A DNA stretch of 41,555 nt from an uncultured bacterium (GTDB lineage: Bacteria > Cyanobacteriota > Vampirovibrionia > Gastranaerophilales > Gastranaerophilaceae): the NCBI GenBank assembly GCA_902802825.1, contig CADCNV010000006.1, positions 41,001-82,555 on the forward strand, written 5' to 3'. Position numbers and translations under genes: made by a program. The notes under the pieces are model-generated. The model saw only the letters and a list, made by a program, of their open reading frames with translations, was not told where the DNA came from and searched no databases. The number at the start of each line of letters is the position of its first letter. Within the stretch, counting starts at the first letter, position 1. This document shows positions 7,759 to 38,645 of this stretch, one piece after another.

Positions 7759-9102
7759 TTATCTTTCTTTAATATAAATCGTGTAGAATTTATATGCCTC
7801 AAAAGTTTCTGAGAAATGATCTTCTTTTAAACCTGCTTTTACTTTTAAAGATTTCATAAATTCGTTTTTATCAGGAATTTCTGCCCAGACAGAAGGTAAA
7901 TAAACTGCCTGATTATCACCGTCACGAATAATTATACCGTCTTCATTCGGAACAATTTTTTCCATCAACTGTTCTTCGTTTTCAAAAATAATTTTCTTTG
8001 GATCCGAAAGAATAGAAACGGCATATTTTAGATGCGGTAATTCTTCTTCTCTGACAGGAGAAAATCTCAAATCTTTAAAAGCGGCATCTTTTGCGTGTTC
8101 AACCAAATCAGTGATAAGCGCTCTATGAGCAACAATTGAACCGATACAACCTCTCAGGCGACCGTGTTCTTCAATTGTAACAAAACATGCTCCCGGCTGA
8201 TCGAACACCTGCGGATAAATTATAGACATCGGCTTTTCATTGTATTCGGAATTTACAATCAGTTTGCATAAATCAATGATAAAGCCGGAATGATACCTTG
8301 CAATATAATCATTTTTATTTCCTTCATACAAGAACCAGCAGCCGTATCCGACTACTTTTGATTTATCTTCAGAAATTTCTGATGAATTTGCAAGATCAAT
8401 TCTTATCATAGAAAATTTGTTATTGTTTGCAAACCCGACAAGCCCTGCAATTCCTATAGCACCACATGCCTGTTCATATCTGAAGCCGGCCATATTACCG
8501 GTTTCTATCATTTGCGCCGTAACTTTATCAGTTGCCTTCGCTCTTTCATCTGTCAAATAATGACTCAAATCAGATGAGATAACAAACGCATTCTCTTTAT
8601 CCGGATAATATTTTTCAATAATACTTTTTATAACATCCGGATTTTCTTTTCCGATAAGTACGGGAATAATTTTTGCATCACCCAACAAATGCTGAATTAT
8701 AGGCAATTCAACCTCGATTGAATGTTCATTATTCATTGCATCGTCATTTATATTTGCACCAAAACTGTTATGCAAATCCATACAGATTTCCTGATTTATT
8801 TCGGATGTACCGATAGGAGTTTCCCATGCATCATAGCTTGATAAAGCAATACCGTCAAAGCCCACTCTGTGCGAAGGTGCAAAAATAAAAATGTTTTTTA
8901 CATTTTTATCAATCTGACTTATACCTTCATAGGCAAGACGCCCCGAATAAACAAGTCCGGCATGCGGAACAATAACTGCTCTGGTCGCATATTGATACAA
9001 GTTCTTACTTGTTTCTTTAAAATTCTGTATTTGTAAAATTAAATCCTCTGCGCTGCCTGTGTAAAAAATATTGGCAACTGTTGCTTCTTTTATTTTTCTC
9101 AT
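7759..9102 (-). CDS. AmmeMemoRadiSam protein: MEMO1 + AMMECR1 fusion
   Basis: A 447-residue two-domain protein. Residues ~1-260 are a MEMO1-like domain related to extradiol dioxygenases (VIVPHAGLVYSGRLA, FIFAPSHRVGFDGIAL, HSIEVELPIIQHLLG, VISSDLSHYLTDERA). Residues ~275-447 are an AMMECR1 domain with the signature GRLRGCIGSI and the RFSPV motif. Together with the divergent radical SAM gene this is the AmmeMemoRadiSam set, whose role is unknown. I chose the ATG at 9102 over an upstream one at 9135 because the longer form would overlap the opposite gene and add residues unlike the family. The ATG lies 6 nt past a -10 box, so the mRNA may lack a leader. Confidence 0.92.
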   Translation of the reverse strand: MRKIKEATVANIFYTGSAEDLILQIQNFKETSKNLYQYATRAVIVPHAGLVYSGRLAYEGISQIDKNVKNIFIFAPSHRVGFDGIALSSYDAWETPIGTSEINQEICMDLHNSFGANINDDAMNNEHSIEVELPIIQHLLGDAKIIPVLIGKENPDVIKSIIEKYYPDKENAFVISSDLSHYLTDERAKATDKVTAQMIETGNMAGFRYEQACGAIGIAGLVGFANNNKFSMIRIDLANSSEISEDKSKVVGYGCWFLYEGNKNDYIARYHSGFIIDLCKLIVNSEYNEKPMSIIYPQVFDQPGACFVTIEEHGRLRGCIGSIVAHRALITDLVEHAKDAAFKDLRFSPVREEELPHLKYAVSILSDPKKIIFENEEQLMEKIVPNEDGIIIRDGDNQAVYLPSVWAEIPDKNEFMKSLKVKAGLKEDHFSETFEAYKFYTIYIKER

Positions 9103-9106
9103 AACA

Positions 9107-9118
9107 GTATTATAATAC
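9107..9118. promoter_or_regulatory. Palindromic overlapping -10 region of a divergent promoter
   Basis: GTATTATAATAC is a perfect 12-bp palindrome. It contains TATAAT on the plus strand (9111-9116, 7 nt before the ATG at 9124) and on the minus strand (9114-9109, 6 nt before the ATG at 9102). For the minus strand a TTGATA lies 15 nt upstream of the -10. No clear plus -35 is seen. Both genes would start transcription at or next to their start codons. Confidence 0.6.
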
Positions 9119-9123
9119 AATTT

Positions 9124-10125
9124 ATGAAATATCAAAACATCTTAACAAACGGTAAAATTCAATGCACAATTTGCCCAAGAAACTGCATCTTAGATAAAGA
9201 ACAAAGAGGGTTTTGCCACGTCAGAAAAAATATTAACGGCGAAATAATTTTAGATACATACGGATATAATACCGGTCTTGCAATTGACCCGATTGAGAAA
9301 AAGCCGCTTTATCAGTTTTATCCGACAACAGGAGTATTATCATTTGGGACTTTGGGCTGCAATATGGGCTGCCTGTTTTGTCAAAATTGGCAAACAACAA
9401 AAAACAAAACAAACCCCAAAACTCTGAATTACAATTCCCCGCAGGATATTGTAGCAATTGCGCTTAAACATAACTGCAAAAGTATTGCGTTTACATACAA
9501 TGATCCGATAATATTTTTTGAGTATGCAATTGATACTGCAAAATTGTGCAGGCAATTTGGCATTAAAACAGTTGCCGTAACTTCCGGCTTTATAAACCCA
9601 GAGCCGGCAAAAGAATTTTTTTCATATATGGACGCAGCCAATATAGATTTAAAGGGCTTCAGTGAAAAATTTTACGGGAAAAACTGTCTTGCTAAATTAC
9701 AACCGGTACTTGATACCATCAAATATGCCTGCAATGAAACAAATTGTCATGTAGAGCTGACAACAATGCTTATTGAAGGAGAAAATAACTCGGAAGAAGA
9801 ATTGAAAGCCGAATGCAAATGGATTTTAGACAATGTCGGAGCAGATATACCTTTACATTTCAGTGCATTTTTCCCTCGGTATAAATTTGAAAATCGCAAA
9901 GCAACGGAATTTTCAACTCTATTAAAAGCATATAATATAGCAAAAGAAATCGGTTTGAATTATGTTTATACAGGCAACATAACAAATACGAAAACCTCGA
10001 CAACATATTGCAAAAATTGCGGCAAAGGCGTGATTATCCGCAACGGTTACCAATTACTTGAATACAACTTGACTCCTGACGGGTCATGTAAATTTTGCGG
10101 CACAAAATGCGACGGAAGATTTTAA
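9124..10125 (+). CDS. amrS: AmmeMemoRadiSam system radical SAM enzyme
   Basis: A 333-residue radical SAM protein of the AmrS type. The N-terminus has TICPRNCxLxxxxxGFCHVR, also seen in pyruvate formate-lyase activase relatives. The cluster motif is GTLGCNMGCLFCQNW (CX3CX2C), followed by SIAFTYNDPIIFFEYA and a strand-rich core ending in a Cys-rich tail (YCKNCGKG, then CKFCGTKC) likely to bind zinc. It is divergent from the MEMO-AMMECR1 fusion. Its substrate is unknown. No ribosome site precedes the ATG, which is 7 nt from a TATAAT box. The terminator at 10278-10311 probably ends its transcript. Confidence 0.92.
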   Translation: MKYQNILTNGKIQCTICPRNCILDKEQRGFCHVRKNINGEIILDTYGYNTGLAIDPIEKKPLYQFYPTTGVLSFGTLGCNMGCLFCQNWQTTKNKTNPKTLNYNSPQDIVAIALKHNCKSIAFTYNDPIIFFEYAIDTAKLCRQFGIKTVAVTSGFINPEPAKEFFSYMDAANIDLKGFSEKFYGKNCLAKLQPVLDTIKYACNETNCHVELTTMLIEGENNSEEELKAECKWILDNVGADIPLHFSAFFPRYKFENRKATEFSTLLKAYNIAKEIGLNYVYTGNITNTKTSTTYCKNCGKGVIIRNGYQLLEYNLTPDGSCKFCGTKCDGRF

Positions 10126-32478: not shown

Positions 32479-33619
32479 AATCTTCTTCTTTTTTATAATT
32501 AGTTTTTGCTTTTGAATTTCTGATTTTATCATTTTTCTTTTTAGTACGCTTTGACACTTTTTTATATGCATTATCGACTGAAATTTTAGTTATCGGACTC
32601 CCGTTTTTTCTGTCATAAAAAACAAGCCAAAAATCTCTGTTTAAGTTATCCACGGCAAATGAAACATCAGCAATCAGTCTGTCACCCGGTTTCACTTGCC
32701 TGAACATCAGTTTTGTATTCCCAAATATTGACGGGCTGAATTTTACGCCATAATCATTTTCCAATGCCATATCAAAACCGGATAATGTTTTATCCGACAT
32801 ATTTGAAATAAGCAATGATAAAGTTATAGTATTTGCATTACCAAAAGGATCTTTTTCATGTTTTACATTATTTATATTGATATTTAGACCTTTATATATT
32901 ATTTCTTCTTTCTTAAGTGCTTCTTCTCTGTATACGGGCAAATCAACAGACGTATTGATTTTTACTTTAATCTGATCCCCGGGAGCAATAAGCACCTCTC
33001 CGCCTTTTCGAATCAAAGCAACGCCCAAACCGACAGCACCACCAATAGCTGCTCCACCTGCAAGTGTATAACCCTGAGAAGCAATAGCCGCTTCCCAACC
33101 GAGCCACTGCAATGCCATCAATCCGCCAACGGCACCACCTGCTGCAGTATACCCTACATCCTGAGCCACAATTTTTGCCGTCTCAGCAACAGGATGAAGT
33201 TTTGTACTCATTTTGCCTTCAATAGGAATTTCACGCCCGTCAGGAGTAACCAGATAATCAAATGACAAATTTAATGCTGCAGTTCTACCCATACGTTTTG
33301 TAGAAATTATCTTATCCAATCTGCCATGAGCTTTTGTTCCCTTTGGTATAATAATACCCTTATCCCCATATACATCCGATGTAACTTCGGCAAAAAATTC
33401 ATCACCTTCCATTGATGTTGTTGAATCCAAGACCTGAGATACAGTCATGTGAATAACGTCACTTCTGTCCAAAGTTTCAATTTTTCCGGTAAACATTTGG
33501 TCATAAATTTCCTGAGAAGTCCCTGTTTCAACAACCGAACCCTTTAATGGTTCCTGCGCTAAGACAGGATTGAAACTTAACAAAGATAGTAATAATAAAG
33601 CTCCGAAAAATTTTTTCAT
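32459..33619 (-). CDS. Exported protein of unknown function with Gly-rich hydrophobic segment
   Basis: A 386-residue protein with a Sec signal (MKKFFGALLLLSLLSFNPVLA). After a mixed region (~25-150; GDEFFAEVTSDVYGDKGIIIPKGTKAHGRLDKI) comes a Gly/Ala-rich hydrophobic stretch (~160-205) of glycine-zipper character, then a beta-rich C-terminal half and a basic tail. The IIPKGTKAxGR piece reminds me of VirB10/TrbI-like proteins, but I cannot confirm it. The ATG at 33619 is 6 nt from a TATAAT box and has no Shine-Dalgarno sequence. Confidence 0.75.
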   Translation of the reverse strand: MKKFFGALLLLSLLSFNPVLAQEPLKGSVVETGTSQEIYDQMFTGKIETLDRSDVIHMTVSQVLDSTTSMEGDEFFAEVTSDVYGDKGIIIPKGTKAHGRLDKIISTKRMGRTAALNLSFDYLVTPDGREIPIEGKMSTKLHPVAETAKIVAQDVGYTAAGGAVGGLMALQWLGWEAAIASQGYTLAGGAAIGGAVGLGVALIRKGGEVLIAPGDQIKVKINTSVDLPVYREEALKKEEIIYKGLNININNVKHEKDPFGNANTITLSLLISNMSDKTLSGFDMALENDYGVKFSPSIFGNTKLMFRQVKPGDRLIADVSFAVDNLNRDFWLVFYDRKNGSPITKISVDNAYKKVSKRTKKKNDKIRNSKAKTNYKKEEDFMQMDF

Positions 33620-38129: not shown

Positions 38130-38645
38130 ATGTATGAAATAAAGAAACAAATATATCTTGATTTTACAAAAAACCAAAAATCATCTTTATGCAATTATCT
38201 TCGGGCTTATGTAAAAAAATATTCCGATTTGGATGAAAAAGATATTCTAAAACGCTTTTTGGATGATGAAAAATACTATCAGGAGCTGAATTGCTCTAAA
38301 TTTGAATTTCTGAAAGACATATTGTATGAAGACGAATTTACAAGTGATACCCAAAAATATATTCATGAATGTAAAAAATATTATGCTTACAAAGAATCTC
38401 AGCGTCCGATAATAGAAGCAAATAAGGCATACGAAAAGCAAAAACGAGAATTTCTGAAAAAAGTAAAAATGTCAAAAGAATCTCCGACAAAAAAACAACT
38501 GTATTACTATGACAAACTTTGTAAAAAATACAATCTTGAAAAAAAAGAATTAACCTCAAAACTTGAAGCGATGGAAGAAATTGACAAAATTATATCCGAA
38601 CATAATCAGGATTATAAAATTGCCGAAACAAACGGAGAGAATTAG
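38130..38645 (+). CDS. Hypothetical protein upstream of prmC
   Basis: A 171-residue Lys/Tyr-rich helical protein. Most of it is unrecognised. The tail SPTKKQLYYYDKLCKKYNLEKKELTSKLEAMEEIDKII has the PTxxQxxYxxxLxxKY...A...I pattern found at the ends of some helicases and DUF3072-like proteins, probably a protein- or nucleic-acid-binding helix pair. It starts 6 nt after a TATAAT box without a ribosome site and is co-transcribed with prmC, whose ATG immediately follows its stop. Confidence 0.75.
   Translation: MYEIKKQIYLDFTKNQKSSLCNYLRAYVKKYSDLDEKDILKRFLDDEKYYQELNCSKFEFLKDILYEDEFTSDTQKYIHECKKYYAYKESQRPIIEANKAYEKQKREFLKKVKMSKESPTKKQLYYYDKLCKKYNLEKKELTSKLEAMEEIDKIISEHNQDYKIAETNGEN

Follow-up and report, generated by a model that had tools for sequence, protein, structure and literature searches.

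The window, the 41,555-nucleotide stretch of DNA analysed here, comes from an uncultured bacterium of the Gastranaerophilales and carries two divergent genes of the AmmeMemoRadiSam system: a MEMO-AMMECR1 fusion gene (hereafter MEMO) and a gene for a radical SAM enzyme (rSAM). All three domains of the system score above their curated cut-offs (MEMO, TIGR04336, 210 bits versus 26; AMMECR1, TIGR04335, 171 bits versus 99; radical SAM protein, TIGR04337, 469 bits versus 220), and the identities proposed for both genes in an earlier note on this DNA therefore hold. Among named relatives, the nearest are metagenome genomes from the rumen and gut, and many of these carry the label Candidatus Gastranaerophilales. 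Among the 46 genomes of genus g1, 23 contain a MEMO relative and those same 23 contain a strong rSAM match, while the remaining genomes have neither gene or merely distant radical SAM matches; this clean pattern of co-loss supports the view that the two genes form one functional system. The three domains are the same as in other AmmeMemoRadiSam loci (TIGR04335/04336/04337), but here MEMO and AMMECR1 are fused and are divergent from rSAM, whereas outside this group MEMO/AMMECR1 lie on the same strand as rSAM, or were not found adjoining it, in nearly all of 40 sampled loci.

The two start codons (CAT at 9100-9102, the ATG of the reverse-strand gene, and ATG at 9124-9126) are separated by a spacer for which the earlier note's length of 21 bp is correct to the base. 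At its centre lies the perfect palindrome that had been described, offering TATAAT on both strands at 6-7 nt from the ATGs, and no Shine-Dalgarno-like (SD-like) motif is found on either side in the window sequence, as had also been stated (Table 1). The -10 elements share bases on both strands at 9109-9116, as in bidirectional promoters, and boxes 6 and 7 nt from the ATGs without an SD agree with the layout of TA-led leaderless genes, in which a -10 element lies about 12 bp before the start codon. A generic promoter scan did not flag the spacer site, because the scan requires a -35 match. In a random 21-mer of the same composition, the chance of finding ATTATAAT is about 0.002 and that of the 12-mer palindrome about 5e-6; however, it is conservation across relatives, rather than rarity in one genome, that constitutes real evidence for the box.

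Table 1. Features of the MEMO/rSAM locus (positions in the window)
Feature	Position	Strand	Remarks
MEMO-AMMECR1 fusion gene	7759..9102	-	447 aa; predicted leaderless
Intergenic spacer aacaGTATTATAATACaattt	9103..9123		21 bp; proposed as the whole bidirectional promoter core
Perfect 12-bp palindrome GTATTATAATAC	9107..9118		outer GTA/TAC arms frequent, not invariant
Invariant core ATTATAAT	9109..9116		two consensus -10 hexamers with a 4-bp overlap
MEMO-AMMECR1 -10 hexamer TATAAT	9109..9114	-	ATG 6 nt on; 6 nt in 55/60 short-class loci
Radical SAM -10 hexamer TATAAT	9111..9116	+	ATG 7 nt on; 7 nt in 69/80 loci
AmmeMemoRadiSam radical SAM enzyme gene	9124..10125	+	333 aa; predicted leaderless or with a 1-nt leader
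Candidate -35 TTGATA of the MEMO promoter	9130..9135	-	inside rSAM codons 3-4 (TAT CAA), 15 bp from the -10

Conservation of the box and its distance to the start codons

We compared 91 rSAM loci drawn from the genus, family and order; these loci are related and include near-identical copies, which means that the counts lack independence and that Fisher P values come out too favourable. MEMO lies divergently upstream of rSAM in 83 of them, and ATTATAAT is present in 80 of these 83 Gastranaerophilales pairs, the three pairs without it (L037, L038 and L138) all being distant. A chance origin of the box was rejected, as a sequence with a probability of about 0.002 in one spacer has nonetheless been kept throughout these pairs. 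Among the 80 pairs with ATTATAAT, the distance from the box to the rSAM ATG is near-constant. In the 49 loci that share an identical geometry (a 21-bp spacer, with the ATGs at 6 and 7 nt), all eight core columns are invariant, as against none of the other 13 columns of the spacer, and in the same genomes invariance extends to none of 62 fourfold sites and to one of 63 twofold sites. Strong constraint therefore acts on the core, and the bases it holds are exactly those of the two -10 hexamers. The arrangement has been kept across dozens of related gut bacteria, and it is real.

The earlier note had named a spacer not conserved in relatives as something that would refute its proposal, and the proposal passed this test. 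What is invariant is the inner ATTATAAT and not the outer GTA/TAC arms, whose bases are common without being required (G at 9107 in 46 of the 49 loci, C at 9118 in 42). A perfect 12-bp dyad of this kind, extended in a few loci to a 16-bp palindrome (ATGTATTATAATACAT), could instead be mainly an operator at which a dimeric regulator represses both genes, the -10 match being secondary. We consider this improbable: symmetry is not conserved over the whole dyad, as it would be in a transcription-factor operator, but is lost from the outer arms in several genera (GGCATTATAATAC, GGAATTATAATAC) and in loci with long spacers; invariance is limited to the bases needed for two -10 hexamers; and the fixed 6-7 nt to the ATG is a promoter constraint, found with the same spacing in leaderless genes that have no mirror half. 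Still harder to sustain is the idea that the spacer is coding, with MEMO starting upstream (for example, at TTG 9135) and the conserved letters encoding a peptide ...YYNT. An open reading frame from TTG 9135 is indeed listed, and in 54 of 59 short loci no stop codon interrupts the MEMO frame within the spacer; yet TAT TAT AAT shows no synonymous change in the 49 loci, where almost all twofold sites elsewhere vary, spacers of the frame-breaking lengths of 22 and 23 bp exist, and an ATG at the aligned position opens 81 of the 83 MEMO genes. A coding spacer is thus the least credible of the alternatives considered here.

The distance between box and start codon was also examined away from this locus. 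In 737 kb of the genus (G029 contig 2, 396 kb; G024 contig 1, 260 kb; 40 kb of the bacterium's own contig 6; and the window), distances from TATAAT to an ATG opening an open reading frame of 80 codons or more peak at 6 nt, with 33 observed against about 6 expected per position (P 5e-14), from which it follows that leaderless genes are normal in this genus. The same tally over 100 kb of a genome of another family (G069, 38.5% G+C) gave no peak. Two candidate leaderless genes were seen elsewhere in the window, at 33619 on the reverse strand (GAGTATAATTGCGGT immediately 5' of ATGAAAAAATTTTTC) and at 38130 on the forward strand (GAATATAATTAATTT immediately 5' of ATGTATGAAATAAAG). The rSAM box, at 7 nt, does not coincide with the genome peak of 6 nt, and this counts against the promoter reading.

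The double arrangement is rare, occurring in the sampled contigs at the MEMO/rSAM locus only. Across 191 family genomes, the strict pattern CATN6ATTATAATN7ATG has 72 matches, versus 15 for a reversed control, and 33 of the 72 lie at this locus. A second divergent pair, with ATGs 6 and 7 nt from ATTATAAT, joins a uvrC-like gene to a gene for a small cysteine-containing protein; it occurs in two genomes of genus g70 (L142 1501-1527 on G158 contig 1, and similarly on G261 contig 8) and appears from its sequence to be at least one other genuine-looking case.

Short, long and unlinked forms of the locus

The MEMO ATG lies 6-8 nt from the box in 60 of the 80 pairs that have ATTATAAT. The short class (60 loci) has a spacer that is usually 21 bp, with MEMO 6 nt from the box in 55 loci and rSAM 7 nt from it in 53; the long class (20 loci) has spacers of 40-67 bp, with rSAM again 7 nt from the box in 16 loci and MEMO 26-53 nt away. 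SD-like motifs stand ahead of MEMO in none of the short-class loci, versus 16 of the 20 in the long class, and ahead of rSAM in none of the 83 divergent pairs. From these counts and the box distances, rSAM is predicted to be leaderless nearly everywhere, and MEMO in the short class only. The claim that both genes are leaderless thus survives for the short-spacer clade and fails for the deeper relatives, which keep the shared box and a predicted leaderless rSAM but have a MEMO leader of about 20-45 nt, usually with an SD-like motif. One long locus, L120, has in its 67-bp spacer two separate TATAAT boxes, one for each gene and both 6 nt from the ATG that they would serve, and here the shared box looks as if it has split into two leaderless promoters.

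In the rSAM tree (a quick tree with moderate support), all short loci fall in one main clade except L130, which is sister to the long locus L133, and with midpoint rooting the long loci branch more deeply. Because the deeper relatives have a leadered MEMO, the short form looks like the result of later leader loss; on the simplest reading of the sequences, the combination of a shared -10 and a leadered MEMO is the older state, and MEMO has lost its leader on at least two occasions.

Upstream of the MEMO -10, the motif TTGATA falls at 15 bp in 61 of the 80 loci, where the usual spacing is 17. The Gln codon of rSAM that forms part of it is CAA in all 72 paired loci, versus 72% near starts in general, and in the eight unlinked loci CAA and CAG stand at 5:3. 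These counts suggest that TTGATA may be the -35 of MEMO, at shorter-than-usual spacing, which is the least secure part of the interpretation. A convincing -35 was also sought for rSAM and none was recognised; that recognisable -35 elements are weak overall counts against the promoter reading.

In those eight loci rSAM has no neighbouring MEMO. They are nested in the short clade, about five unlinkings being needed to explain them, and their genomes retain MEMO elsewhere. Only one of the eight rSAM genes retains ATTATAAT; L111 has kept TATAAT while its mirror half has changed from ATT to ACT. Four of the eight now lie behind other genes and have lost the promoter altogether, so the evidence for loss of symmetry rests on few cases; after unlinking, the mirror half is usually lost. 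In genus g46 the unlinked MEMO is again 6 nt behind a TATAAT, in a box that is not mirrored. The unlinked MEMO genes L280-L286 (genera g10 and g46) have 48-51% identity to the MEMO of the window, the rSAM identities there being about 70-74%, and possibly represent replacement by a more distant MEMO.

These comparisons bear on whether the shared box might serve rSAM alone, with MEMO expressed from elsewhere and its TATAAT a by-product of symmetry. The rSAM spacing is the more constant of the two and is kept even with MEMO 26-53 nt off, as such a one-sided promoter would predict. We nevertheless regard it as very unlikely, since the MEMO spacing of the short class is fixed too, without an SD-like motif, the mirror half ATT is invariant in pairs and became ACT in unlinked L111, and the codon constraint on TTGATA relaxes once MEMO is unlinked.

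A putative two-way promoter and its relation to known systems

We hypothesize that the spacer is a minimal sigma70-type bidirectional promoter giving two predicted leaderless mRNAs, in an arrangement that has been inherited. This is very probably correct: comparison of the genomes lends the promoter reading strong support, with start sites that are predicted. If sigma70 polymerase starts in both directions at the start codons, four observations are explained: which bases are invariant, how far the box lies from each ATG, why SD motifs are missing, and why symmetry disappears once the genes are unlinked. Each of the three alternatives (an operator, a one-sided promoter, a coding spacer) leaves one or more of the four unexplained. 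The earlier note's central proposal, one shared -10 for two divergent leaderless genes, is in this sense borne out by the comparison of pairs, the starts being predicted. With a consensus -10 on each strand of ATTATAAT, RNA polymerase would bind in either orientation, one at a time, and would start at the A of each ATG (9102 on the reverse strand; 9124, or 9123, on the forward strand), that is, on opposite strands and 21-22 bp apart. The two leaderless mRNAs would be translated from a 5'-terminal AUG, and the upstream promoter contacts of each gene would lie inside the first codons of the other. The ancestral state would have been a shared -10 with a leaderless rSAM and a leadered, usually SD-led MEMO, and losing the MEMO leader would then have made both genes leaderless in one main clade and, separately, in at least one other lineage. 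What selection favours would be the joint expression of the parts of a single protein system. A fuller version, in which we have about as much confidence as doubt, makes the locus a self-contained 21-bp two-way module: one 8-bp box, two leaderless mRNAs, and first codons that double as the partner's upstream promoter element (rSAM TAT-CAA as TTGATA for MEMO), which would have come into being when a bidirectional promoter that already existed lost an SD leader by deletion.

The earlier note had further proposed that polymerases compete at the shared box and so fix an expression ratio. As an addition to the promoter reading, rather than an alternative to it, a fixed MEMO:rSAM ratio could be the selected function. 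Mutual steric exclusion of two polymerases does follow from the geometry, and competition has been seen in Escherichia coli when one side is strongly activated (PMC12825309). However, the five E. coli bidirectional promoters that have been tested had too little basal activity for polymerases to compete, and none of them showed substantial competition at that level (PMC12825309), and after about five independent unlinkings both genes have been retained. We therefore set this part of the proposal aside as unlikely.

Bacterial bidirectional promoters of the kind described by Warman and Grainger have divergent starts 10, 18 or 23 bp apart (PMC12825309, PMC10268837). Like them, the present site has a pseudo-symmetrical -10 that can be read on either strand, lies between divergent genes with linked functions (as theirs often do), and has opposite-strand starts, which are about 10-23 bp apart there and are predicted here. 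It differs in that the predicted starts coincide with start codons and are 21-22 bp apart rather than the usual 18, and in having two perfect consensus -10s with a 4-bp overlap at a putative promoter that is conserved across a family. Leaderless genes with a -10 next to the reading frame have already been described, according to excerpts of PMC3160421 and, for Deinococcus-Thermus, PMC12340547; the TA-led genes in these excerpts likewise have a TATAAT-like box about 12 bp before the start codon and no SD, but they are single genes, whereas here one box would serve two divergent genes. Our literature search found no leaderless genes reported in Melainabacteria. In Mycobacterium tuberculosis, the divergent neighbours prpD and Rv1129c have both been mapped as leaderless mRNAs (excerpt of PMC3898074); unlike the present pair, whose products are two parts of a single protein system, they encode a regulator and an enzyme, and the excerpt reports no shared palindromic -10. 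Bidirectional promoters, leaderless genes and a doubly leaderless divergent pair (in M. tuberculosis) are thus already known; what is new is that a single conserved 21-bp module combines them, and that it can be compared with leadered forms at orthologous sites.

So far, descriptions of bidirectional promoters and of leaderless genes come mostly from a few model organisms among the bacteria. In uncultured gut bacteria, the present locus packs both features into the least space possible, and it is well enough conserved to be used as a natural experiment, with orthologous sites that have or lack the MEMO leader and have or lack the partner gene. Such contrasts allow direct tests of whether a shared -10 couples two genes, and of the way in which leaderless translation takes the place of SD-led translation. 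If the two-way module is true, it would make the switch from SD-led to leaderless translation traceable at one orthologous site.
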